Assembly: GCA_951230915.1 (NCBI GenBank)
Contig: OX579636.1
Coordinates: 5,471,001 to 5,535,000, forward strand
Length of the DNA stretch: 64,000 nucleotides
Origin: Antitrichia curtipendula
Taxonomy: Eukaryota; Streptophyta; Bryopsida; Hypnales; Leucodontaceae
Reading direction: 5' to 3'
Positions 7,109-62,233 of the stretch are shown here, piece by piece (position 1 is the first letter of the stretch; every line of letters starts with the position of its first letter). The notes beneath the pieces are model-generated. The model searched no databases. It was given only the letters and a program-made list of their open reading frames with translations, and had not been told where the DNA came from. A program made the translations under genes and the position numbers.

Positions 7109-7117
7109 CATGTGATG
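7109..7117 (+). repeat. Candidate left target-site duplication CATGTGATG
   Basis: The 9-mer CATGTGATG lies just outside the left end motif and is repeated in the same orientation at 62225-62233, just outside the inverted right end motif. Nine bp is the usual MULE target duplication length. By rough count, a chance match of this size within ~20 bp of both ends is well under 1 percent, but the two TIR tips are not identical, so this remains a candidate. Confidence 0.45.
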
Positions 7118-7209
7118 AAACCAGGGTTGCTAGCATGCGAGCCCGTGAGCCTGTGAGCGGGAACATTTTTTTGCATAAAAAAAGGTAAGGGACCTATGAC
7201 CGTGGATTC
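7118..7209 (+). mobile_element. Left terminal region of outer MULE-like element
   Basis: GCTAGCATGCGAGC (7129-7142) is followed by G-rich GAGC repeats, a short A-rich run and GGGACCTATGACCGTGG (7189-7205). The same order appears inverted at 62208-61971: GCTAGCATGCGAGC, GAGC-rich repeats, AT-rich DNA, ACCTATGACCG, CCGTGGATT. A diverged copy in the same orientation lies at 13911-14092. It sits ~470 bp beyond the stop codon of the methyltransferase gene, as expected for an element end. Confidence 0.6.
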
Positions 7210-7675
7210 TTTACATTCAAAAGTTATAGAAATGTGAAGTCATTTAATCCTTAAAGGACAGACTTACAGCCGTGGAAATCATGCATTTTGGTACCATGTG
7301 GCATCATCTAATTTAAATAAGCCAAATATACTTATTAGAAGTCAAAATACTCTAGAAGATTTTTCATTTTCATCCCTAATATCGAGGATGAATAATTGTA
7401 CTTCTATCCTGCATGGAGAGGTTCTTTTTCATTCATTGGACAAAAAACGTCCTTTGTGGCGTTTAAGGGTTAAGTAAAATTTGATTTACTTGCAAAAGTA
7501 ATTGGAAGTGGTTTTGGACAATATATTAATGTATTCATTTCTGATAGACATCATGATATACAAATTGCAAATGGAAATATCAAACGTCCAAGATGTAGCC
7601 ATAAAACACACAAATCCAATCAAATTAGAAATCCAATACAAAGTTCGACCCCTGAGATGTGTCAATCTCAAGAGT

Positions 7676-10600
7676 CTAAGTGGCAGTGGACTCAGTAGCG
7701 GAACCTTCAGAAGAAGATGATGATGACTCTGATGTCTCCCTACCCTCTGACGCACTACCATCTATAAACTCTAGAACATTCAAAGCATTTGTATCTTTGC
7801 GACGTTTTGGATTAGAGCTTCCAAATTCTACGAACGCAGATGCCATCTGCTCGGCATATACGAGAAGATGAAAAGGCTTTTCCGGACTCAAGAGAAGCCT
7901 TCGTCTCTTCATAATCTCATTTGCTGATGTCAATCGTTGATGACTACAAACAAAAGTGAAACAATGTTAGACTTGCAAAACATAAGACTGTATTTGGAAT
8001 TAAAAAAAACAACAAACAAACTCAAACTTACTTACTGAATGGTATCTGTCGAGAGAACTTTTGAGGCACAATGGTCATGCCATCCGGATCTTGGGATTCC
8101 TGAACTGCTGATGGTGCTTGTGTTGTCTCCACGACTGTGGTAGACTTCTTCATGGGTTCAAGGATGGCTTTGAAAATATCTCCATCCTCTTCCAATGCAA
8201 CAATATGGCGGCCCGTGCCACGACAAGCAGTAATGGAGGCCCCTAAAATGAACAACTTCATATACATTAATTGAATGATATAATTTGAAACAATACAGAT
8301 CTAGTCAACATAATTAAATTAAATTTATACCTGTAGCTGCAGTGCAATCTAGAACTTCATAGTCTGTGTGAGTTTGAAAGAGAAATTGGATTTTCCTTTT
8401 GTACCGAAATCCTTCACAAGTAGGGTGATTGAAAACTTTTGGGTCTGCAAGAAATCAAACCAAACATATGTAAGAATTTAATGACAAAATGAATGATAAA
8501 ATGACATCATTTTAAAAAGGAATTCAATTATATTTACCGTAGTTTTGTTGTCCAATGCCGAAGTTAAGTGCAATCTATTCATGCCCAACCACTCTTTCTT
8601 CTTCTTCAACATCGGATAAACCTCACACAATCCTAAAATAGAGCTCTTTGAGTCCATGGAAAATGAATGAATAATAATCAAACATCCATGGTCTTGCAGA
8701 TGCCTTTCTGCAAAGATAAATACCGTATGCATTGCCTCGTACTCTGTATCTTCATTCCAATGTGGAATCTCATTTGTTGGCACCGACATTCCAAGCACAG
8801 GCAAATTTTCTGGACAGTCAAAAAAGATAAGGTCCACTCCTGGCCTTCGGTTTAGGACACCATCAAAAAATCGAGACTTCCCTGTCGATACCTACGAACA
8901 TACCGTATTCCACAAAATAAATTATGAACTTACAAAATCATCATGTTGTTCAACCAAAAAAAGATTTTGCAATAACAAATCGAATATATTACCTTTGTCA
9001 AGAATTCCATAATCTCAGGATACCACGATGGTTCCTTCGAGCGCATGTCATCTACAAGGTCTACAATAGAGATATTGAGGACCAAATCCTCCGTATTGTC
9101 TCCCTCATCATCATGAATCATAAGAGCTTGAGTGCCATGCATAAGAACATCCTCGGTTAGCTGTGACAATGCCTTCCTCTTCAATCCACCTTGAGACCCA
9201 CCTTGCATCTGCGAGCCTTGGTCGACGGTAGAAGATGCCGGAATTGGGTTCTTGTCATCTACTTTCTTCTTGCCTTTGGCCTTAGCCTTCTCTTCTTTCT
9301 CCTTCTCTTTCTCTTGCTCCTTCTCTGCTAACTTTGCAATGCGCTCCGCTTCTTTTTTCTCTTTTGTGATGATGGTAAGTTTCTCCCTAGCTTCCTTTTT
9401 CCTGTCATTGTGTTCCCTCCTTGCAATGGCCCTTTTCTTTTGTTTATCACTTAAACCCGCAAACTCATCAACGTCCAAATCAATGGCACCTAAACCCTCA
9501 AAAGACTTCCGGTATTGCACCTCAAACGAAGGCGTGAAGGTGATGTGACACTCCAAATACCATCCTCCTCCGCTGAGATGAGTTGTTGTGAACGTACGGA
9601 GCTGGTTTAGGATATACATGCAATCTGCTGAACTTCGATCAAGCCAAGTAGACAAGAACGGAGGAAGATCCTTCTCTACAATTGAACCCTTTGAAAGAAG
9701 CTCCAACTTGAAATACCTGCGGTTTAATTCAAATGTGTCATTGCATATAAGTTTCAAAGTACATTAGATTAAAAACAAATCAACACATTCTTTTATGCAA
9801 CACCAAAAAAAAATTGAGAATTAACCACATAAAGAAGAATTTACTAGTGCATTTTATGGTTGCTATGCGAAAGCAAATAAGCCAAATATTCATTAAAATG
9901 AAGAAAACCAAATTAAAAATTCATTTCATGCAAAAAGTTGGGGCTTCACATGGTATCTACAAAACCATAGTTGGATTTTTGTATTTACATTAAAAACTAT
10001 CATATTCAAAAATCATTTTGAAACATAATGGTACCAGAAATTGGAGGTGAAGCTAGTAACTCCAAGAGCTTAGTCGGATCCGACTAAGCCGACTGAGGTA
10101 CCAGATTCACCTCCAATTTCTGGTACCCCTCACTGTTTCAAATAATTTTTGAATTATATGCATAGATTTTTGTAAAAGTGTAAAATTGAAATATATACTC
10201 TTCATCTCTTATTCAAACAGAAAATAGTATAGAGTTCTATGAACAAACCGAAATAGAACTCTTCGAACTGCCTGGTTTGAGCCTTCATAATTCATAAAGG
10301 AGTCACTCTTCTTAAAATAATTTGCTTCCTTCAATTGGGCATGGAACCCGTGATCCCACATCCTCCTCCTCCAACCTTCTATGTAATCCACGAGGAACTC
10401 TGGCCTCTGCGGGACTTCCATATTGATGGTGATGTTATCATATTTGATCACGCCATCAAAGTATTCAATAGCTGCATCTTCAATCTAAAAAAGAAGCAAC
10501 AACAAGATTATTTATTCAACAAAGTGACATACATGTTCAAAACAAAATTAAAAGTTACTCACATGCATGTTCATAATGACTATGGAACTTTATTCAATGA

Positions 10601-12233
10601 AAATTTGCAACTACAAAAAACAATAGAAAAATTAATACAGAATCACTTACCCCAGCATACCAAATGCATTTGTTCAAGAATGGCCCAAGGTGGGTCTCAG
10701 ATACTGGTTTTGCAGGAAACTTCCTAGCATCGCGGGATGGCGTAGAAGAATTCCACCACTTCAAAAACTTTGTCTTGTGATGAGGAGTGGTGTTGCAAGT
10801 AGAAATCATTTGCAGCTTCTCGAGGGTCATCTCCGGGACTTTGTTATTACAATAGTGCCTTTCAACTTGCATAATTAAAACGACATCATTTCACATTAAA
10901 AAAACACCCTAAAAGTAAAAATATGTCAATAAATTATTTCGGATAAAATGCAAATACCTCTTCCAAGAATTCAAGACCATTTGCTGGATTAGCCACCGCG
11001 ACTAACTTCATCATCTTCATGTACAACTTGTTCGCTTTCTCTTTAGCTCCCATTCTCATAGCATTTGCGATGCCAGCCTCGCTTTTATCGGCCTCTGCAG
11101 TTGTCTCACTATACTTCCGTCCTGCCGCATCCGCTGCAAGTGAAATTTCTTGCTGAAAGAAACCAAAGGCTTCTTAATAACTGTATTGTATACTAAATCA
11201 ACACAAGTGACCAACATAGCAATGTTCATGAAATTCCAAAATAAGAAACATACCCGAAACATGAAAGCTATGAATACATCAGCTGGCATCGAGTATTAAG
11301 TTTTCCTAGTACTGGAGGCCATACATTTCTTCACCTCTGACGGCTTCAACATCTCCAAAAACTTTGGCAAAGATAAAAGACCATACTTTTGCACACGATG
11401 CAATGAGTGGACCAAGTTGGTCTTCACATGAGAGTCTTCCGTCGATCTGAATTTTAAAAATTAGAATTAGAATTTCATTTTCCTACTTCTCTCTTGAAAA
11501 AAAAGGCTAAATCTAATTAAAACAATAAAACATGTACTACCAAAATACGTATGATACCAGTCACTTACTTGTTTATGTCATGCATGACTTCCATGGCCAG
11601 TTCAATTCTTCCTTTTGTATCAAGAACAATGCAATCTACTACAATATGCCATGCCTCGTCTGCTGGATAGAGTCTAGAAATGTGACTCATCCATGCTAGT
11701 AGACAGTGGTTTCCATCACAAACAAAAAACTTTGCCCCCCTCAAAAAATGCAATGTCTCATGTGAATTAATATGATCCATGAACTCATTGTTTGCTTTTT
11801 GCCAAACCGACCCCCAATTGCGCATTTCTTCCTCTGTAAATTCTATACTTTCACCTGCCTCATTTGTAGTGGAAACATAGAAGGCAGCAGACCCTGGTCA
11901 ATACCCGTGAGAAAATTCTTGCTCCAGCTTCTTCACATCAGAAGACAAGGTAGGTCGTACCATAGGCATGGACACCAATCTGCACAAGGGGATAAAAAAA
12001 CGGAAAAGTTTTTCTGGTTTCACTCTTAACGAAGCAATTGTGGCCACTAAATCGACCTTCTGTAATAGGCGGAGTTCATCTTCAAGAAGCTCCTTCTCTT
12101 CATCATCAATGCCATCCTCTTCCATATGACCTCCTTCGTCTTCTTCCTCAATTTCAGGCTGAGTGGTGTCATCTGTCCCTGGAGTCTTTATAATCCCCTC
12201 CAACTGTGTTTCCTTTATTGGAGAATCCTCCAT
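7676..12233 (-). pseudogene. ParB-like / N4-N6 DNA methyltransferase fusion (copy 1)
   Basis: Ten exons can be placed by GT/AG sites and by comparison with copy 2: 12233-11569, 11446-11254, 11152-10958, 10866-10651, 10484-10249, 9716-8993, 8891-8538, 8444-8331, 8242-8032, 7943-7676. The N-terminal part holds a ParB-like motif (FFVCDGNHCLLAW). A long Lys/Glu coiled region follows in exon 6. The C-terminal part resembles a beta-class N4/N6 DNA methylase: VDLIFFDCPENLP at the DPPY position, then VLDCTAATG-ASITACRGTGRHIVALE as the SAM-binding motif. Damage: TGA 11898-11900 (Arg in copy 2), TAA 11296-11298 (Trp in copy 2), a 160-bp shortening of exon 8 that breaks the frame, and an apparent AG-to-AA change at the exon 4 acceptor. 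The ParB motif has GNHC where copy 2 has GNHR. Its 3' end faces the left element end. Substrate and activity are unknown. Confidence 0.72.
10030..10127. repeat. Foldback hairpin, AGTCGGATC family, copy 1
   Basis: Perfect 22-bp outer arms (10030-10051 and 10106-10127, GGTACCAGAAATTGGAGGTG...) enclose a perfect 22-bp palindrome (10068-10089) centred on TAGTCGGATCCGACTA. It lies in intron 5 of the copy-1 methyltransferase gene. Three related hairpins exist at 13210, 13660 and ~59930. They share the central TAGTCGGATC core, and most also share the GGAGGTGAAGCTAG arm segment. Confidence 0.85.
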
Positions 12234-12426
12234 CTGCAATGACAAACCAAATAAACTCAAAATTCTAATTTAATGAAATCATAAGAGATTATAAACTTCT
12301 GAATTGATGATAAATGTAAACATAAAACTTTAATGCCAATGACATGTTGTACTACAACGGATGGATTAAAATAAATAGTTAATCAAATAACCACCCTCAG
12401 TGGGCTTTACAAAAATAGTTAATGAT

Positions 12427-12918
12427 CTACCAACTCTCATAGGATGTAAACTGGATCAAAGGGCTATCAACATCCACGTCCTCATCTGAGCTATAATGGA
12501 GTAATACCACTCTAGGACCATTCACAAGTGCGCTAGTTGCATTGTCCCCAGTTTCTTCAAAATTGGGACCAGTAACAGTAACAAAAGACTCCTCCTCTGA
12601 GCTATACTCAGTCTCTGAGCTCTCATCAGAGAATACCGGTTTCTTTCCTTTCCGGAAACGCTGGTGGTCTGAGAAACGACTAGCTAATGGCTCTTTCTCA
12701 AACTCATCTGCTGCATGATCGGCAGCATCCATAATATCATTGAAGCTTACCAAGTCTTCTTCATCAGCATCATCATCTGAAATGTTGATGTTGGAAGGAG
12801 AAGGAAGCATTTCCATTGGCTGAGATGGGCCGACAATATCTGCTACCGTGATAATGTCCTGCTGCACTGTGGAGGCTGAGGTCTGTCCTTTCTTTCCTCG
12901 TTTTACTTGGACCTGCAT
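12427..12918 (-). CDS. Acidic Ser/Asp/Glu-rich ORF, unknown
   Basis: A 163-codon ORF starts MQVQVKRGKKGQTS and then becomes strongly acidic with Ser-Asp/Glu clusters (NISDDDADEEDLVSF, SDESSETEYSSEEESF). It lies 194 bp upstream of the copy-1 methyltransferase ATG on the same strand. An acceptor-like TTGCAG immediately precedes that ATG, so this may be an upstream exon of the same gene, although no clean donor with the right phase was found. No counterpart was seen upstream of copy 2. No known domain is recognised; it could be a regulatory or nuclear protein segment. Confidence 0.4.
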   Translation of the reverse strand: MQVQVKRGKKGQTSASTVQQDIITVADIVGPSQPMEMLPSPSNINISDDDADEEDLVSFNDIMDAADHAADEFEKEPLASRFSDHQRFRKGKKPVFSDESSETEYSSEEESFVTVTGPNFEETGDNATSALVNGPRVVLLHYSSDEDVDVDSPLIQFTSYESW

Positions 12919-13209
12919 GAGAAAACAATAATAATTTAGTAAGTATACAATTGATCTAAAAGTAAAGAAGTGATTGCATTTGACATATGTTATTATAAAA
13001 ATGATTATTAGAATCTATAAAACAAAATTAATCTCAAAGAATCAACCAAAAGTGCAAAAAGAAGAAGTTTAAGTGGAAATGGGCCCAAGTGTTTTAATGA
13101 ATGCTTTTAAAGCTAATTACCTTAAGCTTACACAACCCTGCACAAAGATAGTTGTGTAAGCAAGAAAAGCCATGAAAAAAGAGTTTAAAGTATTATTGTA
13201 CTTACTGGG
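12919..13209. other. AT-rich spacer
   Basis: No gene recognised. The 5' flank of the acidic ORF lies here, with no clear TATA box. Confidence 0.3.
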
Positions 13210-13309
13210 TGTAACCATTTTTTGGAGGTGAAGCTAGTGCTTTGAAGACCCTAGTCGGATCAGACTAGGGTCTAGAGAACACTAGCTTCACCTCCAAAAA
13301 ATGGTTACA
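13210..13309. repeat. Foldback hairpin, AGTCGGATC family, copy 2
   Basis: Perfect 30-bp arms (13210-13239 and 13280-13309; the arm begins TGTAACCATTTTTTGGAGGT) enclose an inner perfect 11-bp stem (AGACCCTAGTC / GACTAGGGTCT) with loop GGATCA. The inner core TAGTCGGATCAGACTA matches the other family members. It sits between the acidic ORF and the 13.9-kb element end. Confidence 0.87.
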
Positions 13310-13659
13310 TCCACTTGTAAAAATTATTCGTATGAATATATTAAATACATGTCATTATTATTTAGACCGCATATCCAATCAATTTAAATGTGTTCATTAA
13401 AAATGCATGTTTGTTTAGTTAAATATTATTTTCATATTTTGTTGTTGAACTTCAAATACTACATATTTAAGTAAAACATGACCCTTAAACAAAAATTACG
13501 GAAGACCCAAGTCAAATTATCATTGCAAAATTACAGTTTGTATCACTGTTCATTATATATTATATTCAAATTCTTTTAAAGAAAGATGTTACTAAAACTT
13601 TTTAGTCTTTCACATCAAAATAAAAAGAACTATTTAAAATTCTAAGATAGATCCTCATT

Positions 13660-13763
13660 CTAGTACCAGTTTAGGGGGGGTGAAGGAGATCCTCACCAAG
13701 ACCTAGTCGGATCCAACTAGGGCTTCATGAGGATCTCCTTCACCCCCCCTAAACTGGTACTAG
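13660..13763. repeat. Foldback hairpin, AGTCGGATC family, copy 3
   Basis: Perfect 36-bp arms (13660-13695 and 13728-13763; the arm begins CTAGTACCAGTTTAGGGGGG) enclose the core CCTAGTCGGATCCAACTAGG. It is the longest perfect stem of the family. Arm sequence differs strongly from copies 1 and 2, while each copy remains perfectly self-complementary. Confidence 0.87.
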
Positions 13764-13910
13764 CACGGGGACATGAGCTTCAGTTATGTATTGCTATCAT
13801 TCATTAATTTAATTGTCAGTCTCTGAACACATCTAACCCTTTTTCAACCTTATTTATGACTAACTAGAAGATCAATTAATATGACTAAAACTAGACTTCT
13901 GAGCAGATGT

Positions 13911-14092
13911 GGCTAGTACGTGAGCTTGGAGCGGGGAGCAGGGAGCAGGGAGCAGGGAAAAAGAGAGCGGGGAGCAGCGATTGTCGTAAAAAATCCAAAA
14001 ATTAAGAATTTTAATCCAAAATAGAATTTTTTTGTGAATTAAATTTTAAAAAATCTAAATTTAGAAAAATTGGGACCTATGACCGTGGGTTC
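13911..14092 (+). mobile_element. Left terminal region of inner MULE-like element
   Basis: GGCTAGTACGTGAGC (13911-13925) is followed by GGGAGCA repeats, an AT-rich run and GGGACCTATGACCGTGG (14072-14088). This is the same architecture as 7118-7209, in the same orientation. It lies ~0.8-1.0 kb beyond the stop of the minus-strand SWIM transposase, comparable to the outer element where the end lies ~0.3-0.55 kb beyond the transposase stop. A matching right end was not found near 27 kb, where a retroelement abuts. Confidence 0.5.
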
Positions 14093-14149
14093 AAAAGAGC
14101 CTACTACCATCAAAAATTGAAGAAAGTACGTGTGAAAAAGAGGGAGAAC

Positions 14150-14450
14150 TAAAAATTAAGTTGGGAAATGAGACAATGTGAGGAACAAAAAGAAAGACAA
14201 AGAATTTGAAAACTAAAAAAAAAATGGAAAAAACAAGAAGCTGGAGAAGAGGAAGAACAAAGAGCAATAGGGAGAGGAGGTGGCAGAGAGAGGGAGAACT
14301 TAAACCAATAAAAAGGGCAAGGGAGAAGAAGAATGAGAGTGAGGGAAAAAAGAATATGGAAGATGAGAGAAGGAGAGGAAGAGTTTGAGAGACGGAGGGC
14401 TCAAGGAAGAGAGGGAGAAGTTGAGGGAGAAAGACGGAGAATATAAAAAC
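14150..14450 (+). repeat. Purine-rich (GA) low-complexity tract
   Basis: About 300 bp are almost pure A/G on the plus strand (AGAAGAGGAAGAACAAAGAG and similar). ORFs here on either strand are composed of Lys/Arg/Glu or Ser/Leu/Phe only and are composition artefacts. The tract lies between the element end at 13.9 kb and the transposase stop. Confidence 0.6.
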
Positions 14451-14927
14451 CCAATGAGTAAATAAAAGTGGATGAAAAAGAGGGCTACAAGCAATATAGA
14501 TTAAAAGGAGTTATAGATTCAAGTGTGCTTTAGATGGACTTTAGAATCTCCGAAGCAACTTTTGAGAAAGTTTACACGTATCAAATTCATAGGGCCATGT
14601 TCACTCCTGCCCAAACATGCATAATTCAAAGTAGGCAACTTACATAATATTTTTGAACTTGAGCCTGGAGCTCACCTGTATTTAATGTATTATGACAATA
14701 AGTATTTGAATAGCTAGAAATGTTCCAAAATTTGAATGGGTCCATCTAAATGGTCAATAAAGAGTGCAGCACAGGAGTGGGATATGCATACCATAATTCC
14801 TAATCATAGTTAGATTTAGTTACCAACATTTTCCAGAGAACAATCAAATAGGGTTTAGGCATGATTTCCAAAAGCTAGTAGTGGCCCTTTTAGTCTTACT
14901 ACCATTTTTGAATGAATTCCATAAGGA

Positions 14928-17900
14928 TTACATTTGGTGAATTTCTGGAATGCGATAAGCTAGGATACCGCTTTCTAGAATCTGCTTCACTTCATTGAAG
15001 CTAAAAGTTGGTACATGTATGAAAGCATCTCTCTCGGACTTTAGGCTACCTACAACAGTAAAAATAAAATAAAGATGCTTGCAACTTGCCCACCTCCCAT
15101 GCCTGCCCAAAGACTTTATTGCCATATCTTTGAAGTTCAGACAAGAGCATTCAGGGAAAGTACCAATGGTGATCAAGTACTGTTGAACTTTTGGTGGAGC
15201 TCCAGAATCAAGGGTGATAATACACCCATATCCTGGATGAGGAATCATCGTCACCTTACGTATCTGACCCTTCAAGGTGAGAGCAGACGCACAGTTGTTG
15301 GCCTGCTGAATGTTGGGAGCATTGTTGTTCCTGCGGATGGACTTACTTGATCTGGTCTTAGGACAGTCATCTGCATTAGCTGGAGTGGGAACTGAAGCGA
15401 GGCTAAAGGGAAGCTCTACCGTCCCAAAGAGTCTCCTTGGAGAGATGACTGCGCGCTGTGGTAATTGGAAGCTAGCACTCTCTAAATCAAGGATTTCCTT
15501 CTTGGAAAGGTTGGTCCCAATCTTCACTGGCCATATACTTGGGATGTCCGGTTTGGACTATACCCACTTCCGCTTTGTACCTTTAACACATCGCTCGACG
15601 TCATCGTTGCAGAAGAAGAACTCCATTGTCTCCAGCCTCTTCTTGTGAGCGTTTTGTATGACTCCAGTGTATGTGGGGGTTGCAGTGGATTTGTTGCACT
15701 GAACAATCTTGGCCTTGCACTTCTTCTTGGTGATAGCTTGCTGGGCGAAGCAAGCCTTTGCTGAGGTCTTGGGCAACCTTGCAATGTGCCACTCCGTCTC
15801 CTTACAAGCAGTTTCGTATACAACAGTCACATGACTAGTTCTCCCTACGTCGGTCGTCATAACTTGGTTGTTGAGTTCTTCGTCCTCTTGCAGCTCGGGA
15901 GAGAGTTCTTCCATTACATCGGGAAGACTGCAGCTCGCATGGTTAGCTCGGCTTGACCTGGTTGCAATTCGTGGACGAGAGAAGTTTACCTTATCCGGCC
16001 GGTGTGATTCGCCTTCAAAACCGAGAGGAACATTGGCTTTTCGCTTTTGGGAGCCAAAGACTTCCTCGCCAGTCAAATGAGGGTCACGAGTGTAGAAGAG
16101 CTCTGCTCCTAGCAGTTTGGCCATAGCAACGTTTAGCACTTTGGGGTCCCCAGTTCGTTCAGCTGTGTGTTGGGCAGCGCGAAGCTGCAATTCTTCTTTC
16201 CCAAGACTAGTGCCAGCGCGGTCGCCCTTTAGGTATTGGAAATATCGGACAACCTGCATGAGTGCCCGGATGAAATCATCGACAGTAGCAGTATACAAAT
16301 CAGTTCCTCGGTTGCCAAACTGCTGATTCCATTTGTGGTGCATTGATTCGGCGAGATTACAAGAGGGCATCTCAGCAAGCTCTAATTTGGTGAGATCTTG
16401 CCATGACAAAGACACAGACAAAAATCAATGGAAGAAATTAGGAACCAGAATGCCCCAAAGAGAAGCCAGTGTCATATGCAAAGTGACAAACAATAGCGAA
16501 CTTACCAATTGCATAAATCCACCCCATTGGTGATAGCGGAAGTGCCAAAATGCCAACCAGAGCTCCAGACGGCTCAATCCCTTGTCGGATGTGGCCCCGG
16601 AGGAGAGCCACCATGCACGAATGGCAAGATATAGAGTTTCGGATTCTGAAGATGAAGCTGTATTTTTGTATTGCCTACAGAGCTAACGGTGCTGGTGTTA
16701 TAGGTCGGCATGGATATCGGCCTTCGTATGCTTTTCAAGGGATTGGGCCCAATGGAATAGGCACATCCTCTCTTGGTCCTTCATGGGAATCGTGGCATCA
16801 CCACTACCGTAAATCACCCTAACCGCATTCCAGTTTGCTTGCGCGCTGTTTGCCATGAAGCCCTTGAACTTTGGTGATGGAACACCGTGCCTTGCCATGA
16901 CAGCATTTATGTTTTTCCAAAGTACCATCTGAGCAATAGCATCCTCTGACTGCATATCACATACCGCAATTGTCATGACTCGACAATACGCGGAGTCATA
17001 CACCTGGCAAGCCATGGTGGTCCAATGCTTGACTCTTTTGACGTGATCAAACATAATCCACGATTTCTCCAAATCTCCTCCAGGCTGCATTCGTTTGACC
17101 AAGTGAACGCCAGATCCGGGCCCTACCTCGGACATCTTGAAAACATATATCTTGTCTGAGTCGGAGCCTTGTCCCGGAAACTTGTTCTCTTGCACGTAGG
17201 CCCAATGGCTATAGCCTCTGAGTGTGGTGATGCTGTCCATGACTCCAAATCTTCGAATGTACCTAAACGCAGTGACGTCGTTCTTGATGCTTGGGGAGCT
17301 CATGTACTTGCACTTCTCAAGAACAGGGACTAACTCCTCCAGATCAAATTTTTGAACTTTCGCCCCTTCTGGATTAATGAGTAACACACCGACAAGTTCC
17401 TTACTAGCCTCCATGACAATTGCAGAGTTAGTGGCCTTGGGTGTCCTCTCGACCTACTCCTGAATGAATTGGCGCGTTTTCTCCTTGATCTCTTGATCTT
17501 CACCCACCTTTACAGGATGGTCATGAACTCCCAGATGCAGGCAAGCACGAGTCATGTTAGCATCTCCGTAGACATAATAGACTCTAGCAGCATAAGTTGC
17601 AACACATGTCGGTGGAACTTTACAGATTTTGTAGACAAGTGTCGACCCAGCAAGTGCGGATTGGCCAGCCGGAATCGTCTTCACAGTGAATCCATCCCAT
17701 TTCCTCTCATTGACCTCGGAGGTGCGATGAATGCGGGTAGTGTATTCACACTTTTGATTGTCACAGCGGAGGTGGCCAATGCACGTAGAAGTACGAAATG
17801 TCAAGCTGACATCACTCTTGATATTTGAAGTCACTGTTTTGGTCCAAGCATGACCATCATGACGCTTGTCCATTCCATGCATCATATGGAATGGACCGGT

Positions 17901-18613
17901 CTTTACTACTGGTGGTAATTCAAAAAACACATCTCCACTAAATGTAGGAGGGAGAAACTTGACCCTCTGGACGCAAAGAGTTTCAAAATCAAGTGTTTTG
18001 AAAACATTCCTAACTCCTTTAATATCCCGAATTCTCTTCAAGGAATCAACAACACTAAGGCACTCCTGAGTAAAGACGAGGGGTGAGGGATGATTCAATG
18101 GAGAAGAAGACTTCAAACATGACTCATGAAAAGTGCTATTGACCAATGGAGAAGGCACGGGAAGTGGTAGTACTGAGAGTTCCGATCCTCATCATCACTG
18201 AGAATTGTGATGAACTCATCAGCAAGTTCCAACTTCACCCGGGTGGCCTGGGTGACCTGAACGGTACTCGTGGACGACGGGTGGGGTGTGGCAAACTCCG
18301 TGGATGCTTCATTGATTGATTGACTCAAGCCGTATACTCGATATCTTCCAGCATTAAGCAACCATTTCTTGGTGGCTCCGTCACAAACTGGAGACTGGAC
18401 AATAGTGTGAACCAGATCTCCGGATTGTGCATCATAGACCTCTTCATCAATGAACATGACTTCCTCACTCATCTGAAACCTGAGGCTCAACCTCAATGAG
18501 GTGACATGAGCTACTCCGTCATTGCCTAACGGGAAATATACTGGAACCCTTTCACTACTGGAATAGATAACAGCCAACCAAGGATTAGGGTCACAAGTAA
18601 AATGAGCAGCCAT
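14928..18613 (-). pseudogene. SWIM-finger Mutator-like transposase (copy A)
   Basis: Start ATG 18613 (MAAHFTCDP) aligns with the start of copy C. Exon 1 runs to 16506 (donor TTG/GTAAG) and exon 2 from ~16400 to 14928. Domain order: an N-terminal unknown region; a Cys/His zinc domain of WRKY-GCM1/FLYWCH style (CIGHLRCDNQKCEY...ARVYYVYG...HLGVHDH, ~17.56-17.79 kb); the MULE transposase core (MFDHVKRVKHWTTMACQVYD, then GFMANSAQANWNAVRVIYG and CLFHW); and the C-terminal SWIM finger CSCLNF...WASCKHLYF (~15.1 kb). Damage: a 1-bp frameshift near 18180; TAG 17454-17456 and TAA 16698-16700, both Gln in copy C; TAG 16683-16685; TAG 15558-15560. The second catalytic Asp (ADS in copy C) is Asn here. Divergent from the basic protein gene at 19521. 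Family role: cut-and-paste transposition. Confidence 0.82.
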
Positions 18614-19520
18614 GGTGAAACAGATAATTGAGAATGTGAAGAGTTCTATGAGCATTTCCATGAAACAACAAAAACCATGCTACGGCCTAACATATGGGTC
18701 TGTGAACCAGTCACACAATTCAAAAGAATGACGTTTATGAATTTAATTTACAGCAGGAATCGCCAAAATGAGATTGTGTCAGACAAGAAGCTGAGTTTGG
18801 TAACACACAACTAATGGAGAGATATTTATGAATAAAGGTTCATTATGTTCATTGCACGTTGCACTTGATATCTGTGAGTAGTATCTTTGTACAGGAATTC
18901 ATAAATGAAGGAAGTACCTAAACCAAAGGGGTAGCCCGCTTAGCATTTTAAATATTGGGAAATAATATGATTAGATCAATGTTGCCATTGAAAATTACAT
19001 ATTCGTAGAAGTATATATGATTAATGATTTAATCATTACGAGTAGGACTAATACGATAACTTCTTCTATTAAAAGACTTCAGAGGACTGTATCACACTTA
19101 ATATATTTTAGATTATAGTGCCGAAGTGTATTATGATTTATATTGTAACTTATGCCCAAGAAAATCAATAATAACATTAAATAAAGATCTGATAATCTTC
19201 TATTTAAATTAGTAGAAGTGGGTTTATTTGTACTTAGGTGAAGCACATACTTGTTGTTCTAAAATAGAATATAGTGTAGGTTTAACGAAACTACAAAGCA
19301 CCTAAAGCATTCATGGATTATTGCCAGTATTTTGTCCATGGCTGCGGGAGTTAAATTATTCCGTCAGTACTCTATCAAAAGAATTAATGCCATAATAATC
19401 ATCAATAAATTATCTGACATTTTTGGTGCAGCTGTCCTGTTAGTAAACAATATATGATGGGCCTCTTAGGGCTCATTCTCATAATAGTTGAGGCTAGGAG
19501 CTTACATTTTTCTAGGGCAA
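18614..19520. promoter_or_regulatory. Divergent promoter region, inner element
   Basis: A 907-bp AT-rich gap lies between the start codons of the minus-strand SWIM transposase (18613) and the plus-strand basic protein gene (19521). The corresponding gap in the outer element is 902 bp (56684-57585). The sequences are not obviously alike, but spacing and orientation are conserved, implying a shared bidirectional promoter. I see no confident TATA box. Confidence 0.45.
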
Positions 19521-19874
19521 ATGAATGAGTTAGATGAGCCTCTTGTGTCCAATGAGACCAAGAAGAGGAGGAGACGGTCAAAGTTTAGATATTCTAGCAG
19601 GAAAGTATTGCAGCGATCGAGACTGAAGAGGGAGTTCTCTAAATTTGTAGAAAATCACTTGGAGTCGGTTACAAAGGTATTATCATTTCAATGTGAGATT
19701 GGTGACACTGACCATCATGACGTTGCACAAGGATCAAGCTGCCAACGATGCCTTCATAGTATTGAGGAACATGATGGTGATGGAGTGATGCAGAGATGTG
19801 GAAATATTATTTCTTCCGAGGGACGCAATCTAAAGGTTAGTAGCGTATCATTCTTGATGAATTGTAAACTGTAA
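19521..19874 (+). CDS. Small basic protein, element-encoded (copy A)
   Basis: Start MNELDEP is chosen because it precedes the region shared with copy C. The shared core is a basic patch (TKKRRRRSKFRYSSRKVLQRSRLKR), with copy C having RKRRKRPSSLFYSSRKALRRSRM: YSSRK-x-L-x-RSR is conserved. A moderately acidic region and CQRCLHS follow. A possible donor AAG/GTTAGT at ~19835 suggests a downstream exon that I could not place. The basic patch could bind DNA or act as a nuclear localisation signal (inference). It is divergently paired with a SWIM transposase in both elements, so it is likely a conserved component of this transposon. Confidence 0.6.
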   Translation: MNELDEPLVSNETKKRRRRSKFRYSSRKVLQRSRLKREFSKFVENHLESVTKVLSFQCEIGDTDHHDVAQGSSCQRCLHSIEEHDGDGVMQRCGNIISSEGRNLKVSSVSFLMNCKL

Positions 19875-20540
19875 GGGGATTGAGAAGTTGGCTTACTATG
19901 AACAAAGGTTAGAATCAACATCATTCCTGTAAATGTCACCACTGAACAGTCTATGAACTGATCCTAAAGTACCTCTTGAATGAGTTATACAAAATTGATT
20001 TCCTCCTTGTCCTTGAGAGTGTCTATGTAATATTCATCATGAATTCATCAGATTAAGCCTGGATTTCAGGGTTTATTCTCCTTGATGTTTTCCGAAGCAA
20101 GTGTCTGGCAGATCCATAGATGAATTCCATCTCGGACATAAAGGTCTTCACAGGGTGTTTTGATATAGTATATACTGGATTGCGGCCTTATAATGTTCCG
20201 GTAGTCTTCACTGAGTTACGAGGTACGGTTCGCTGAGCTTTCCCGGAGGAGCGACTAAAGATAGTTCTTTGATGATAAGCATTTCTCTATGACTTAGAGG
20301 ACTGAAAATCCTAATATAGAAAAAGATGTCTACAAAGACTAAAGGACAAGCAACCACCATAATCAAAATATAGCGAACCCATGGCCCTAATTTGTATCTC
20401 TAAGTAATTAACTTCACGAGTTACTGGAAATTACGCATCTTGTGTCACCTGATTAGAATGGACGTGGTTAATTTAAAGAATGGAAATGCGCGAGTTCCTT
20501 AGCATTCAGATGATCATTGATTTGTTCCTTATACCTTCCA
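19875..20540. other. Spacer, no gene recognised
   Basis: Short ORFs only. Any 3' exon of the basic protein gene would lie here, but no acceptor plus open frame could be assigned with confidence. Confidence 0.3.
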
Positions 20541-20865
20541 GCCTTTGAGCGACCCTTTTCCTCCTAACATCCAACCTGTGAGAGATTCCTTGTCTTTTAT
20601 TTTGCAGCCCGTGGGTGCGCTCTCTGAGACTTTCGTGACTTTAGGGTGTGCGGGGGAGAGCGGGAGAGGACGACAGAACCTTGCCTTGGAGACAGGAAGA
20701 AATTCGCCGAGTCCGGGAGGCAGCGAGAGCGGCCGTCTATTACGAATCGCGGAGGTGTCCAACGTTTCTTTCAGTGAGGGTGGGAGCGCGAGCAATTGTG
20801 ACGATCTTGTCCCGGAGGTGGGAAAGCAACAGAAGAGGGGAGGAGGGAGCGGGAGCGGGAGCGGA

Positions 20866-21055
20866 GGACAAAATTTCTGTCTTGAGGCACCAAAGAAATT
20901 CTCGAGGGCGAGAACGAGTGGGAGCGGCGGGCAAAGTTTCTGTCTTGAGGCACCGAAAACATTCTCGAGGGCGGGAGCAAGCAGGAGCGGCGGACAAAAT
21001 CGCGATCTTGAGGCACCGAAGACATTCACAAGGGCAGGAGAGACCAAGAGCAACC
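20866..21055 (+). repeat. 63-bp tandem repeat, three copies
   Basis: The phrase CTTGAGGCACCGAAGACATT and its variants recur at 20881, 20944 and 21007, giving a 63-bp period. Because 63 is divisible by 3, several frames on both strands stay open here (for example 20545-21093 plus). The 21-residue repeat reads SGGQNFCLEAPKKFSRARTS and similar. Whether it is translated is unknown. The tract is GC-rich compared with its surroundings and lies ~1.7 kb upstream of the copy-2 methyltransferase. Confidence 0.7.
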
Positions 21056-21180
21056 GAAGGAATCAGATCCAGAAAGAGATAAGGAATCATTAAACTCGCC
21101 TCCAAAGTAAGTCAGGGTTGGATCATCGCTGGCTTCATCTCGAGGAAGACTTGACCTCCGCAGACGTTCCTGTCTTCATT

Positions 21181-21448
21181 CGGGTGAGCCGCTTCTCACG
21201 TCTTGGTGTCGCTGGGGCTTAGCCTTGGCTCCGAGGTCTACTGTCACATGCCCGCGGACGTTCGCTGAGGCAAGGTGAAGCATGCTGTCCGATTCCTCGG
21301 TAGGTTGAATTCCTCGTGTGGGGGTGAGCCGCTTTTCACGTTTTGGTGCCGCTAGGACCTAGCCTCGCTCCCGAGGTCTCCTTTCACTCACCCGTGGACG
21401 TTTGTTGAGGCAAGGAGAATCACGCTTTCCACATCCCCAGTAGGTTGA
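21181..21448 (+). repeat. ~142-bp direct repeat, two copies
   Basis: GGGTGAGCCGCTTCTCACGT...GGACGTTCGCTGAGGCAAGG...GGTAGGTTGA occurs at about 21181-21307 and again, ~85 percent alike by eye, at 21323-21448. It lies in the GC-rich leader of the copy-2 methyltransferase gene. Non-coding as far as I can see. Confidence 0.6.
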
Positions 21449-21698
21449 GTCTCCAGCTTTGTCAAATGGTTTTCTAATTTTTCCATGAACGATAGAAGTC
21501 GAGAACAGGAGAAAGGCGGGCCTGTCTTCAAAGATCTGAGGACGACCTTGGTCCGACAGCCACCAAAAATTGATCGGCTGAAGGGCATTTTCAGTGAGTT
21601 GATTTGGTTGGTCCGGTTATCGTCTTACTAGCGCACTGTGCGTATTCAGTCAGTAAAGCTTCCGAGTTGTTCCTCGAATCCAGTGACTGCATGCAGGT

Positions 21699-22135
21699 GG
21701 CCTCGGCGCCGAGGGAATCAATAGATTACGTCAGGATGTGAGCTGGGGCAGCCGCAACCTTATTAGTTTCTCAGCCGAACACCGCGAGACCCTAATGCTG
21801 ATGACGTCCATCTGTCCCTCTGGTGTAGCCTCGCCGCCGAGGGACCACCACAGGATTTGCGGGATGCCATGCGCGGCAGCAGCTTTGTCATTTGGTTCCT
21901 TTTTTTTATCGCCGTGAGCTCGTGATCGGTCTCGGAAAATCTTGTTCGTTAGCCACGCTCTGCCGTCATGAGCGTATGGATTACTTGCCTTGTCTGGACT
22001 TTTGCAGATTGGAGGAGGTCACATCGGAGAATCTCTAGACTGAGTCTTCGTCTTCCTGCGTTTCAGTGTCTCAACTCTTGCCGCTGCTGTCCTCCGGAGA
22101 TTTCACCAGGGCAGCCTCGGCACCGAGGTGTCCCA
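21699..22135 (+). repeat. Recurrent CCTCGGCGCCGAGG palindromes
   Basis: A perfect 14-bp palindrome CCTCGGCGCCGAGG occurs at ~21701-21714. Close variants CCTCGCCGCCGAGG (~21828) and CCTCGGCACCGAGG (~22115) each follow GTAG/GCAG and precede a similar context (CACAGGATTTGC, CAGAGGATCTGC). These are candidate regulatory repeats in the leader of the copy-2 methyltransferase gene. Confidence 0.45.
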
Positions 22136-22685
22136 GAGGATCTGCAACGCCGTTGTGCGCAGCTACCCTTCAGACTGATAATCTTGTACTATCTACTGTA
22201 TGGGTCTTGTATGTTCCCGTGGTAGAAAAGAGGTCAAACAGTGTTTGGTGTAATTAGGAATTCTCCTTAATCTCGATATCCTTAGAGTAAGTATTGAATT
22301 CAATCTCAGTTTTCATTCTGGGGACAGAAACACAGAGACTGGATTTCCAGCTCTTCATCATGCACAGCCTTCATGAATGTGCAATCCCAGTGGTGACAAG
22401 TTTGCGTCGTAGCTAAATCTTAGTGGTGAAAGATCTGAGTTGTCGTAACCAATTTCTAACTATTCATGATGAACAGACTATTGATTTCATATTTGTGAAC
22501 TTTTCACTCTACAAATGCATGATATTCTTTATTATTTAAATGTCTGTAGCTCCAATTCGCTTTCTCAATGTGCGCACATATTTTCTTGAATCTAGGAATG
22601 TACATTTGCGGTGAAAGCTGTATGGTCCGTATACTCTAGGTGCAAGTTTATGATAATCTAATTACTCAGATTTGTCGAGCAGATT

Positions 22686-42765: not shown

Positions 42766-42767
42766 AG

Positions 42768-43215: not shown

Positions 43216-43430
43216 CGTCCGTCCAAGTCTCGGGCGGCGGTGTAATTATTTCCCGAACCTGTCGACGGCGCCCCGAACCCGTTGAGGGCGTCCCAACCTT
43301 GTGTCGTACCTCTGTGGACGTATCGGCCGTCCATTCCAGGGCTGTCCCACGCCCTGGACGGTCTGGATTCGGGGGGGGGGCGGGCTGATGTTATGTTAAT
43401 TATCCTGCCTAATCGGGTCGGAAATTGGGG

Positions 43431-45754: not shown

Positions 45755-45757
45755 GGC
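45755..45757 (+). repeat. Left CACTA target duplication GGC
   Basis: GGC immediately precedes the CACTA terminus and is repeated at 51808-51810 immediately after the right terminus. Three bp is the standard CACTA duplication length. Confidence 0.85.
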
Positions 45758-45949
45758 CACTGGAAGAAAAAGCGTACTTTCACAACCGACTCATGTGCAA
45801 CTACGTGTCCTATTCAACTACTCTGCGACTACATCCCTCTGTATTTGCACCAAATTTTGCGACTATGCTGTTATAGTCGCTAAGTAGTCGTAAAATGAAA
45901 AGTAGGGTTATGGAAGTGTAACTGAGAATTTACCGTGAGGTATTTTACA

Positions 45950-56330: not shown

Positions 56331-56338
56331 AAGATGAA

Positions 56339-56683
56339 CTACATTGAAATATAGGAAAAGGTTTGAAACATTTTTACAATTGCAGCAACTTCGGATACAA
56401 CTTCATTTTGTTCTCCAATCGTGTCCTCCGACATTTCTTTCACTGCATGACGGACTTGTTGTACACCATCGTCCTCGCCACCACTCCCAACGGTTTTGAA
56501 TTGTAGAACTTTGCGCAGCTCTCCAGCAGTTGCCCCACCTGTCTTTGACATGATTTTCCTTCCTCGACTCATCCTAGATCTCCTAAGTGCCTTTCGAGAT
56601 GAATAGAACAAAGAACTAGGCCTCTTCCTTCTCTTTCTATACTGCAAACTAGAAGTTGGAGCGTCCCAAGTCTCAACTAGCAT
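56339..56683 (-). CDS. Small basic protein, element-encoded (copy C)
   Basis: Start MLVETWDAPTSS (56683) is chosen to match copy A; an upstream in-frame ATG exists at 56731. It shares the core YRKRRKRPSSLFYSSRKALR with copy A (YSSRK-x-L-x-RSR), followed by RSRMSRGRK, a KVL-x-F motif and an acidic tail ending KMFQTFSYISM. 114 codons, no intron needed. It is divergent to the SWIM transposase at 57586, with the start codons ~0.9 kb apart as in the inner element. Function unknown; a DNA-binding accessory or transposition regulator is plausible. Confidence 0.6.
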   Translation of the reverse strand: MLVETWDAPTSSLQYRKRRKRPSSLFYSSRKALRRSRMSRGRKIMSKTGGATAGELRKVLQFKTVGSGGEDDGVQQVRHAVKEMSEDTIGEQNEVVSEVAAIVKMFQTFSYISM

Positions 56684-57585: not shown

Positions 57586-60500
57586 ATGGCTTGTATCAGA
57601 GTTGATGGTCACAAGGTTCCACTTGTTTTTCCAGTAGATGAAGGAGGTAGGGCTAGAGTCTTGAATCACCTCCTTCATGTTCGTTTTAAATTTGTAGAGT
57701 CATCTATCTATGTAGAAGAAGAGAGGAGGTCCAAATCCGGTGAGTTGCAACAATCCATTTCCATTGTCAAGTCCGTTGAAGAAGAAGGTCATTGCTGGTA
57801 CCTTCCTGTAGGAAATTACAGAGCCTATGGACTTCCTTTGTCCATGCTAGGTGCCTCCACCGAGATTATTTGTCGTCAGTCAAATAATTCTACAGTGGAT
57901 ATGCCATACATAGTTCACACAGTTTCATCTAGCCCACCTCGCAAAGTGTTTACGGTGCTACCAAGTACTGGCATTCTTCAGAAAGTGAAAGTCGAGAAGC
58001 TAGATCCAATCATAGAGTTGTCTAGTGAATCGGAAGGAGAGTCCCCTGATTTGACACTTGTAAAACAACAATGCACAGTTGCATCCAAATCAAATGAGAT
58101 CTCAGTGGATAACCTATTACTTTTGAAAACTCCATGTAATAGTCTTGCGCAATCGTCACTTCTACGTCCACCTTTGCATCCTACTCCAGGCAACCGCATA
58201 AGCATTATGGAGTGTTTGAAGAGACTAGCTACTGTTCAACGTTCTCGAAATGAGTTGTCAACAATGGATTTAAACGTCATCAAGCACCATCCTGTACAGT
58301 ATTTGCCTGCTATTTTCAATGGAGATGTTGTCTTTGAGTTGCCTCTGTGTCAATCTTCTTTAGCTTCATCAGCCGCGTGCAATTTGGAGGGAATGGACAA
58401 GCGATACGACAGACACCCGTGGTGCAAGGTAGTGACTACTAACATATACAATACTGACAACTTGAAGTTTCGTAAATCATACTGCACTAGTCACCTCACT
58501 TGTGAAAATTCGCACTGTGATTACTTGAAGAGAGGTAGTACAAAAAACGAAACAGAGTGGACAGGGTATACAATGTTCCCTTTTGTCGTAGGAAATAGTC
58601 CCCCCAAAGATTCTACTCTAGTTTGCAAAATCTGCAAAGTCACACCTAGGTGTCTTAGTACATGTGAGGCTAGAATTTACTACTGCTACAGCGAGAATCC
58701 AAAAATGAGTAGAGCAGCTATTCACTTTGGAGATCACAATCATCTAGTGGCAAAGGGCATGTATAGAAATTCAACAGAAAAAATTTGTGATCTCATCGCA
58801 GAGCAAGTGGCAAAAACACCAACGGCCACTAATTCCGCCATTGCTCTATCTGCTAGCAAAGACTTTCTAACTGATTATTTGTTTCATGACGGAGAGGGAG
58901 AGAAACAAATGTTGAGGGGTGAAGAACTAGAGGAGGTAATGGATCGTTTCCAGTATCTGAGTAGTCCAAACATCCGAAATGTAATCTCTTCATTTCGCTC
59001 AAGCAACCGAGGGGGGGTTATTGACAACATAATGACCATGAAGAAGGAGTCAAAGTTTGAATTTATACACGAGAGCGTCTTTCCAGGCCAAGGCAAAGAA
59101 AAGGTGTACGTCTTCAAGATGCTCACGGAAGGACCTGGTAGTGGAGTGAACCTCGTGCAACGCATGCAACCCGGAGGTGATCTTGAAAATGCATGGATGA
59201 TGTTTGACCATGTCAAGCGTGTGAAGGAGTGGACCACAATGGCTTGCCACGTGTATGATTTGGAGTACAAGAAGGTCATGACTATTTCAACATGTGATAT
59301 GCAATCTGAAGATACAGAGATCCAGGTGTTGTTTTGGAGGTGCTTGAATGATGTGATGTCACGGAACGGTGTAGATCACCCAAACTTTAAGGGGTTCATG
59401 GCAGATAGCGCTATGGCCAATTGGAATGCAGTGCGAATTATCTACGGCAGCAGCTCACCGAATGAAAAGATGGAGAATCGTGAGAGGACATGTTTGTTGC
59501 ATTGGACTACTTCTTTTCATAAGCACACACAAAAGCACATCAAAGATGTATTTCAGCATCAACACAACAAAATGTGCAAACAATACAAAGATTCTGAGAC
59601 TATGGAGTAGGCTGAGACCCGTTACCTTGCGATTCGGTTGTGGTGGTTATCATCAGGGGCTGCAAGTGAAGAAGCATTTCATCACTTGGACCACTGGTTG
59701 GCATTTTGGCATTTTCGCTACCGCCAGTGGGGCGGTTTCATGCAAATGGTAAGTGGTCTTTAAATTAGGACATGTATATTATTTTTAAACATTGATAAAT
59801 GTGTTGAGTGAAATTAAAGAATTGAAGTTAGGATTCCATGTATCCATTTTATAAACCACATTTAGAGTTATCAGAAATCAGAACTTTTGTCAATGTTTTT
59901 TTTAAATTGCAAGGAATCGGTAGAAGGTACCTGAAAGAGGAGGTGAAGCTGGAACCACTCAGGCATTAGTCGGATCTGACTAGTGTTTTTGTGGTACTAG
60001 CTTGACCTTCTATTTTTGAGAGGTTGAAGTAAATGATTAAAAAAAATCGGAATGGAATTGTTTAGTTATATGTAATAGAAAGGAGGGAATTTTTAGCAGT
60101 GAATGTTTATTTGGAGACATAGTAATTTTAAATTATGTTTTGGGGAATATCTTTCATTTTTTTGAAGTTGTCTTAACCTCTAACATTTATGAATGTTGAA
60201 AAATAGTTTTCGGTTTGAAGGAACATATTTCACATGGTAACTAATGTATCATTTTGTTGGATTTTGTAGGGATTGAGTTTGGAGAAGATGGCCGACATGC
60301 CTTCGTGCAATTTGTCAGAAACTATTCACAACAAGTGGCTTCAAATGTCTGGGAATCGGGGAAATAATTTGTTTGACGCCACTTGCGATGATAGCATCCG
60401 GGCATGGATGCAAATGACTAATTATCGTGCATATTTGAGAGGTCATGCATGTGGATCTGGCCCATCAAAAGGTGAATTGAGATTGAGAGCAGCTAGACGA

Positions 60501-61658
60501 AACGGAGATCCAAAGAAAATTGCAGAAGCGTTGAATACACTTTCTGGATCAGAAGGTGTTGGAACTCGAGTACCGCATTTGGAAGGAGAGGAGATTTTTG
60601 GAAGCACTAAGAGGAAATTGGACGTGCCCATTGGTGATGCAGGAGACTCACATCGACCTTAGAAGGTGAATTTTTCGCAACCACGTGTTCGAACAAGGTC
60701 AAAGTCGACTTCTCTAGAGTCTTCTGAGGGAAAAAGTAGAGAAATTGCAACAAACAATTTTCACCATGTCCCTATTGCATTTGAAAGTGATTGTAACACG
60801 TCAAAGTGGCACATTGCACGAATTAGCCACAAATCAAAAGCAAAATGTCAAGCTCAGCAACGGGGTTCAAACATGAAGTGTACGGCAAAAATATCAAAGG
60901 GACAGAAGGAAACTCCAGCTCCCACCTATCACGGAAGAAAAGAAAATTACGGAAGTAAACGTGAGGTTGTGGTGGATTTTTGGTTCTGCTGGGATGACAT
61001 TGAACGATGTGTGAAAGGCACAAGGCGGAAGTGGGTCATTGATTGGCCAGAGGTGCCTGAGATTTGGCCTGTTTTGACTGGGACTCATCTTAATAGGGAT
61101 GAAACTTTGCTACTACAGCATGCGGGCTTTCGTCTTCAAGAAAGTCCTACATTATCACCGCGTCGACTTTTCAGCATGTCAAAAGTATTCAAAAACGTTC
61201 TCTATGATCAACCACCGCCACCAAATCCGACTCAATATCCAACGGTTCGGAACAATCGAAACATACGTCGAATCGCAAATGCCCCAACACCATAACAGAG
61301 GAACAAGTGGGAGAGCGCAAGCAATGTTAGAGGACAAATTGTAGGAGTGACATTGCTTCCCTTTCCAGGCCTAAGTGCAATAGTGTCGCTGGAGACAGGG
61401 GCAGACACTAACAAAAATGTGTATCGAATTACAGTGGGTATGTATCCCACATGCACATGTCCGGACTTCGTTAACATGGTTGTCTCCGCAATCGGAGGTC
61501 GCCAGCAATACGTAAATTGCAAGCACTTGTATTATTTGCTTAGGTACTTTTGCAAGATGGATGTCCATGATGATGTATTCATTCATGCACCAAGTTACAA
61601 CTTCAATGAATTGAAGTTACTTCTAGTTCGAGCAGGGATCATTACAGTCTTGGAATAG
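57586..61658 (+). pseudogene. SWIM-finger Mutator-like transposase (copy C)
   Basis: Exon 1 is 57586-59748 (donor ATG/GTAAGT) and exon 2 is 60270-61658. Together they are 3552 nt, exactly 1184 codons. Start MACIRVDGHKVP is preceded by CAACC. Domains: an N-terminal unknown region; a zinc domain CTSHLTCENSHCDYLKR...CKICKV...RIYYCY...HFGDHNH of WRKY-GCM1/FLYWCH style; the MULE core with MMFDHVKRVKEWTTMACHVYD (first Asp), GFMADSAMANWNAVRIIYG (second Asp intact, unlike copy A) and CLLHW; and a C-terminal SWIM finger CTCPDF...YVNCKHLYYL. Only three in-frame stops break it: TAG 59608-59610, TAG 60660-60662 and TAA 61293-61295 (Gln in copy A). A diverged AGTCGGATC hairpin sits in the intron. This is the better preserved of the two transposases. 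Confidence 0.85.
59930..60035. repeat. Foldback hairpin, AGTCGGATC family, copy 4 (decayed)
   Basis: GAGGAGGTGAAGCTGGAACCAC...CATTAGTCGGATCTGACTAG...GTGGTACTAGCTTGACCTTC has the same core and the same GGTGAAGCT arm as the other copies, but mismatched arms. It lies in the intron of the copy-C transposase gene. Confidence 0.7.
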
Positions 61659-61970
61659 AGGAATGAACATTTTGTTGGATACTTTATTTATAATGTATTA
61701 ATTTACATTTATTTACAATTGGAATGAAATTGAAGAACATTTTTGTCTTCTTTTTTTCATTTATCTTCTAATTCTGATTTTATCTTTGTCATTTTTTTTA
61801 ATTTTTTTGGTAAGCCAAATTTTGTTTCCATCTTTTTTGTTGTTTATTTAATTTTCTTATATTATATTTTTCCTTCTTTTTTCTTTATTTCTATTTCAAA
61901 TTTTGACCATTTTTTGACCATTGACATTGGAAAATGAAAATTGGAAGACCTGAAAAAAATTAATCTAAAT

Positions 61971-62224
61971 CCACGGTTATAGGATTAGCGGTCATAGGTA
62001 CCTATAACTTACTAAATATAGCATTTTTTTGGTTAAATTAAATTTTTTTCATTTGAAAATTTTTTAGGGGGATTTTTAATTCTTTTTAAGTTTTTGAGGC
62101 TCACAAGCTCACAAGCTCCACGCTCGCAGCTCACAAGCTCCACGCTCGCAGCTCACAAGCTCCACGCTTGCAGCTCACAAGCTCGTTGCTCTAGGCTCGC
62201 ATGCTAGCGTCATTGGTGTTGAAA
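61971..62224 (-). mobile_element. Right terminal region of outer MULE-like element
   Basis: Read inward on the minus strand: GCTAGCATGCGAGC (62208-62195), then ~4 tandem units of about 22 bp built on GAGCTTGTGAGC/GCGTGGAGC (62185-62095), AT-rich DNA, ACCTATGACCG (62000-61989) and CCGTGGATT (~61977-61969). This mirrors the left end at 7118-7209. It begins ~310 bp past the transposase stop. Confidence 0.6.
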
Positions 62225-62233
62225 CATGTGATG
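62225..62233 (+). repeat. Candidate right target-site duplication CATGTGATG
   Basis: Exact copy of 7109-7117, in the same orientation, outside the inverted terminal motif. Confidence 0.45.

Follow-up and report, generated by a model that had tools for sequence, protein, structure and literature searches.

A family of broken Mutator-like elements and its ParB/methylase-like gene

The window (the whole stretch of 64,000 nucleotides analysed here) raises the question of whether a Mutator-like transposon carries, as a standing part, a gene joining a ParB-like to a methylase-like domain, or whether such a gene came to lie beside transposases by other routes. The window is eukaryotic and transposon-rich, with a GC content of 0.30-0.52 (2-kb steps). 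A sequence-only reading had seen in it two diverged sets of three genes (transposase, small basic protein, and ParB/methylase-like gene), one inside the other and in mirrored order, and had proposed a transposon type that carries its own methylase (Table 1).

Table 1. Features of the window and of the genome sample (window positions unless a block is named)
Feature	Position	Strand	Remarks
PIF/Harbinger-type transposase	5440-6360		Pfam
Left target-site duplication, outer element	7112-7121	.	GTGATGAAAC, 9/10 to right copy; third element's register
Outer methylase-side TIR	7122-7143	+	CAGGGTTGCTAGCATGCGAGCC; 7129-7143 identical to right end
Outer methylase-side subterminal sequence	7189-7209		GGGACCTATGACCGTGGATTC
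Outer ParB/methylase-like gene	7676-12233	-	decayed
Inner transposase-side end	13904-14092	+	CAGATGTGGCTAGTACGTGAGC, GAGC-rich stretch; first base uncertain by one
Inner subterminal sequence	14072-14092	+	GGGACCTATGACCGTGGGTTC
Inner Mutator-like transposase	14928-18613	-	two exons, decayed
Inner CxC...CxH (SWIM-type)	15149-15075	-	pattern read in sequence
Inner small basic protein	19521-19871	+	
Inner ParB/methylase-like gene	22686-26979	+	GT-AG model
Inner methylase exons 1-6	22686-23320, 23403-23598, 23688-23882, 23966-24181, 24391-24626, 24724-24822	+	
Inner methylase exons 7-11	24868-25459, 25552-25899, 25998-26271, 26360-26573, 26697-26979	+	last acceptor uncertain
ParB/Srx-fold domain	22686-23318, exon 1, residues 66-211	+	predicted fold, CDGNHR motif
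N4/N6-methyltransferase-like domain	25552-26573, exons 8-10	+	inner motif IV D-I-P-E, motif I D-C-T-A-S-T-G-A-S
Gypsy-type integrase	27220-28575		Pfam; frame starts 27220
hAT pieces	33144-36119		Pfam
Outer small basic protein	56342-56683	-	
Outer Mutator-like transposase	57586-61658	+	exon 1 57586 to ~59760; exon 2 from ~60270
Outer CxC...CxH	61452-61526	+	pattern read in sequence
Outer transposase-side subterminal sequence	61988-62002		GGTACCTATGACCGC
Outer transposase-side TIR	62194-62215	-	CAATGACGCTAGCATGCGAGCC, minus-strand reading
Right target-site duplication, outer element	62216-62225	.	GTGTTGAAAC
Third-set transposase	C1:42000001-42050000, block positions 16530-12426	-	
Third-set basic protein	same block, from ~17244	+	
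Third-set methylase gene	same block, 20483-24798	+	
Methylase relics L013, L014	C1:28015711-28018801, C1:28021951-28022229		opposite orientations

Three gene sets and their ends

The mirrored order of the two sets is borne out. When the open reading frame pieces of the inner region (13001-27200) are compared with the outer regions by blastp, all three gene pairs match in mirror order, the transposase pieces at 33-70% identity and 9 of the 11 modelled methylase exons at 22-56%, the lowest value belonging to a charged linker; exons 9 and 11 give no match at E 0.01. The two basic proteins are 34% identical over 89 aa (blastp, E 1e-5), scoring 34.7 bits versus at most 17.7 in 40 shuffles. Inner and outer sets differ at codon positions 1, 2, and 3 by 0.433, 0.327, and 0.697 in the ParB exon, 0.405, 0.297, and 0.627 in the transposase, and 0.600, 0.443, and 0.696 in exon 8. 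This pattern, weakest in exon 8, is as expected if long selection on the protein was followed by decay. As a separate observation, AGTRAGACTAAAAGGGCCACT lies 3' of both inner stop codons, within ~30 and ~60 bp (14880-14900, minus strand; 27041-27061, plus strand; 20/21 alike), and has no third place within the window.

A third set was found in a 260-kb sample of the same genome, taken at sites picked blind to their content (on contig 1, a stretch of 10 kb plus four blocks of 50 kb; on contig 2, a single 50-kb block). Its element measures 13,408 bp (11934-25341 of block C1:42000001-42050000), is flanked on both sides by AAGAATGAAT (10/10), and ends in CAACGGTGCTAGACTGTGAGCT and CAGGGCTGCTATTCTGAGAGCC; this bounded copy supplies exact ends for genome-wide counting. 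YSSRKxLxRS is common to the basic proteins of all three sets. The third element is bracketed by a 942-bp inverted repeat (L017/L019, C1:42008910-42009851 and 42025380-42026321, ~80% alike by eye, ends TTTAnCCCCTAAA), which was rejected as its TIR, since the two arms resemble copies of a different element. Altogether, the genome material read holds five methylase loci (two in the window and three in the sample), three of them within a set that includes a transposase. The remaining two, out of the three sampled, are broken relics in block C1:28000001-28050000, where no transposase match lies. The 5.00-Mb block holds a C-terminal transposase relic only, the contig-2 block has neither transposase nor methylase gene, and the remaining sampled blocks match neither.

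When the third element's register is applied to its ends, the outer element probably covers 7122-62215, interrupted by the inner one, and its target duplication (GTGATGAAAC/GTGTTGAAAC) agrees at 9/10 positions. The ends at 7109 and 62233, which had earlier been read from CATGTGATG, did not stand: CATGTGATG is probably a chance repeat, disfavoured by unequal end spacing and kept here as an alternative. MULE target duplications measure ~9 bp (8-11), and the third and outer elements join such duplications (10/10 and 9/10) to TIRs that are 22-mers. Same-side ends are alike across copies, with an alignment score of 87 versus 44 in shuffles on the methylase side and of 93, 83, and 105 versus 65, 56, and 79 on the transposase side (60 single-letter shuffles for each end comparison). 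The third element's own two ends are alike as well (77 versus 56). Those of the outer element score 40 against a shuffle maximum of 41, and 41 against 51, with only the 15-bp core exact, and opposite-side ends of different copies do not pass their shuffles (50/53, 45/47, 37/50, and 46/46). The inner element starts at ~13904, within the outer element. On its right side, no duplication with a matching end motif was found, and the best alignments (48, 52, and 71; a shuffle maximum of 44 applies to the first only) are all AT-rich without a GAGC-rich end. What this material plainly shows is the arrangement of three genes, together with ends shared between copies and a target duplication.

The proteins, their decay, and their descent

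No copy keeps either of the two large genes intact. The inner transposase has four in-frame stops (17454, 16698, 16683, and 15558), and its frame changes near 18190; there are three stops in the outer one (59608, 60660, and 61293) and two in exon 1 of the third (14557 and 14512). In the methylase gene, exon 1 holds a TGA in the outer copy (11898-11900) and a stop in the third (20720), and the outer exon 9 shows a deletion and a frame change. The inner gene, modelled with GT-AG introns as 11 exons and 1095 aa, is stop-free only if the 45 nt at 24823-24867 are an intron. An in-frame TGA (24842-24844) lies in this piece, and in the outer and third copies exons 6 and 7 of the model run together in frame, so that the likelier reading is a gene of 10 exons with a premature stop. 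We dropped the inner gene as an open gene, as this needs a TGA-bearing 45-nt intron that has no counterpart in the other copies. Six inner junctions were sought in the outer copy, of which four recur with good sites, one with a weak site, and one not at all. Since the anatomy and the motif discussed below rest on all three copies, a probably broken inner gene leaves the odds among the readings unchanged.

The transposase had been called a SWIM/MULE transposase, and the core of this claim stands: the protein is a DDE transposase with an RNase H-like core of the IS256/Mutator kind. Exon 2 carries SCNLAES in the inner copy and SCNLSET in the outer and third copies, the E of which may be the catalytic third acidic residue. 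Pfam MULE models do not match the outer exon 1 alone, and among 52 related transposases there is one weak match to Transposase_mut (E 0.034) and none to a MULE-domain model. The Pfam SWIM model reaches 7.9 bits in one of two pieces (cut-off 19.6), and CxC...CxH is present in two of the three copies, the third reading EYNCPDF...CKH, where the first C is absent.

The first exon of the methylase gene is predicted to adopt the ParB/Srx fold. Queried in full length against the protein database, the gene finds nothing at E 1e-3 (7994 candidates scored). Exon 1, queried alone on the supposition that genes of this kind are represented there by single exons, yields 660 matches. Among the matches listed, CDGNHR is present in 91 of 120 relatives, and 98 of 120 ParB-exon proteins end at the same residues, which are those of the splice donor. 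ParB clamps bind CTP through a GxRR motif and DNA through a helix-turn-helix. A Pfam search with 40 ParB exons gave no ParB model among its matches, and the 40-exon profile found no ParB in the PDB by sequence (best XRCC1, E 0.55).

Exons 8-10 resemble N4/N6 methyltransferases, with the significant profile scores confined to the motif I half. PHROG methyltransferases match at E 9.5e-6, PF01555 matches two of the three copies (best E 2e-4, 21.8 bits, below the curated cut-off of 26.7), and the three-copy profile finds 5hfj (E 0.009) and CcrM (E 0.022) in the PDB. The usual motif I is replaced by D-C-T-A-x-T-G-A-S. The motif IV consensus of these enzymes is (S/N/D)PP(Y/F/W); the three copies read DIPE, DCPE, and DMPE, thus keeping D, P, and E and lacking the aromatic residue in every case. 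HMMER sets vdiPe of the family against DPPY of 5hfj, a stretch that is not significant alone (0.3 bits). As far-diverged copies have the same change in motif IV, its independent decay is spoken against, three broken copies of one genome being few.

Trees built from 27 transposases and from 30 ParB exons put the inner and outer copies in separate supported groups. The third transposase is nearer the outer one (57-66%) than the inner one (44-46%; N-terminal piece 26%), as is the third ParB exon (50% versus 47%). Comparing the matches listed (120 of 147 and 120 of 660), we noted by eye possible shared contigs of matching sizes (9903, 239600, and 583271), which give a linkage hint only, two of the three being large; in both proteins, these candidate same-contig pairs lie closer to the inner copy. 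The trees place five pairs, including the three present sets, without conflict. The idea that the two proteins descended together thus meets no conflict, but the support is weak: with the outer copy as outgroup, the split would agree by chance in ~3 of 15 topologies.

Possible roles of the accessory protein

We think it rather probable that these are copies of an old, broken MULE family with three genes between its TIRs, whose accessory protein acted in trans on transposon chromatin. Its members would be large Mutator-like DNA transposons encoding a DDE transposase whose C-terminal part bears a SWIM-type finger and, also between the TIRs, the small basic protein; the accessory gene, divergent from the transposase, would join the ParB/Srx-fold to the N4/N6-methyltransferase-like domain. 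The accessory protein may bind the element's own DNA, with the ParB-fold part as a DNA-binding or clamp module, and might counter silencing or steer transposition, a role perhaps comparable to that of VANC in VANDAL elements. The third bounded copy, the predicted ParB fold, and the Mutator-type core support the earlier claim that a ParB/methylase-like gene is a standing part of this transposon type, whereas the suggestion that the methylase marks the element's own DNA is made less certain by a domain without DPPY in all three copies. Telling against the family reading as a whole are the sub-threshold PF01555 score, the lack of ParB and MULE-domain models among the Pfam matches, the broken state of the large genes, the two sampled methylase loci apart from any transposase match in their block, and an inner right end that was sought and not found.

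As all copies read have D-x-P-E, ordinary 4mC/6mA deposition seems somewhat less likely than a role that is altered or involves no methylation. We tentatively suggest, as one possible history, that motif IV turned into D-x-P-E before the copies diverged, the protein then being a sequence-specific DNA-binding factor for anti-silencing or transposition or catalysing a changed DNA reaction. If true, then together with the algal Sola1 element it would imply that several unrelated transposon superfamilies had acquired the same bacterial-type cassette. That the protein is instead an active N4-cytosine or N6-adenine methylase marking the element's own DNA, thereby protecting it from silencing or timing transposition, we hold to be rather unlikely. 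The motif I half is related to N4/N6 enzymes, the ParB fold could serve as a targeting module, and own-DNA marking has been proposed in print for the same architecture (PMC12477816); yet D-[ICM]-P-E stands for DPPY in all three copies, D-C-T-A-x-T-G-A-S stands for the usual motif I, and the domain has been read in just three copies, all of them broken and from one genome.

Both accounts under which the gene would be foreign to the element carry far less weight. MULEs often pick up gene pieces, and all sampled copies are broken, which would suit a chance capture in a few copies, a Pack-MULE-like passenger useless to the element. Gene, order, and spacing are nevertheless alike in three sets, the ParB exons of which are 45-50% alike with conserved second codon positions, and the common splice-donor ending of the listed ParB-exon proteins also tells against such a capture, making it very unlikely. 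More improbable still is a chance landing of transposons beside an ordinary gene of host or viral origin: it would suit the two methylase relics that have no transposase match nearby, but not the third set, which TIRs and a target duplication of 10 bp enclose, nor the likeness of the methylase-side ends of two copies. Two scans of viral contigs and one of prokaryote genomes gave pattern matches but no relative.

Because plants are a well-studied setting for the silencing of Mutator-like elements, such a family would allow a direct test of whether transposons of this kind answer host silencing with their own mark or with a methylase fold that has lost its methylating activity. The association of ParB and methylase is already published for algal transposons; here the transposon family is a different one, and the catalytic site is changed. 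The closest parallel is Sola1-1_Ec32 of Ectocarpus, whose accessory protein has ParB-like and N4/N6 methyltransferase domains and for which the authors propose own-DNA marking for protection from host silencing or for transposition timing; the same paper cites green and red algal proteins of this kind (Iyer 2011; Petroll 2025) (all PMC12477816). The two cases share the domains, a similar length (1104 aa in Ectocarpus and 1095 aa for the inner model), a strand opposite to the transposase, and a large element. They differ in the transposase, Sola1 there and Mutator-like here; the comparison covers domain make-up, length, strand, and element size.

VANDAL elements, which belong to the MuDR family (PMC12730594), offer in Arabidopsis another plant transposon with an accessory gene and a proposed role on its own chromatin, but VANC is described as neither ParB nor methylase in the abstract of PMC10398659, and the role here is inferred only. 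Fungal TET/JBP DNA transposons likewise carry a DNA-modification enzyme, theirs being a dioxygenase acting on methylcytosine, without a methylase fold (PMC12730594). Dinoflagellate and charophyte elements also combine mobility with a DNA methyltransferase, but those are retrotransposons with C5 cytosine enzymes and a reported ability to methylate CG de novo (PMC5890265). In the literature searched, with subscription papers mostly outside it, we recognised no Mutator-like element with a ParB/methylase gene. The present family would extend such accessory genes from algal transposons to Mutator-like elements of a large plant-like genome.

Other contents of the window

Rfam, at gathering scores, finds no match in the window. 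Pfam matches mark further mobile elements of the PIF/Harbinger, gypsy, and hAT kinds. A 489-aa open reading frame in the nested region (44418-45884) matches a RING finger weakly, at 21.8 bits (cut-off 27.3). Three interrelated GGACGG-rich repeat arrays lie at 32537-32926, 39831-40240, and 42766-43220, and four short palindromic elements, each centred on a TAGTCGGA/TCCGACTA-like sequence, at 9984-10176, 13206-13313, 13652-13771, and 59926-60018, two of the four sitting between exons of the outer genes.
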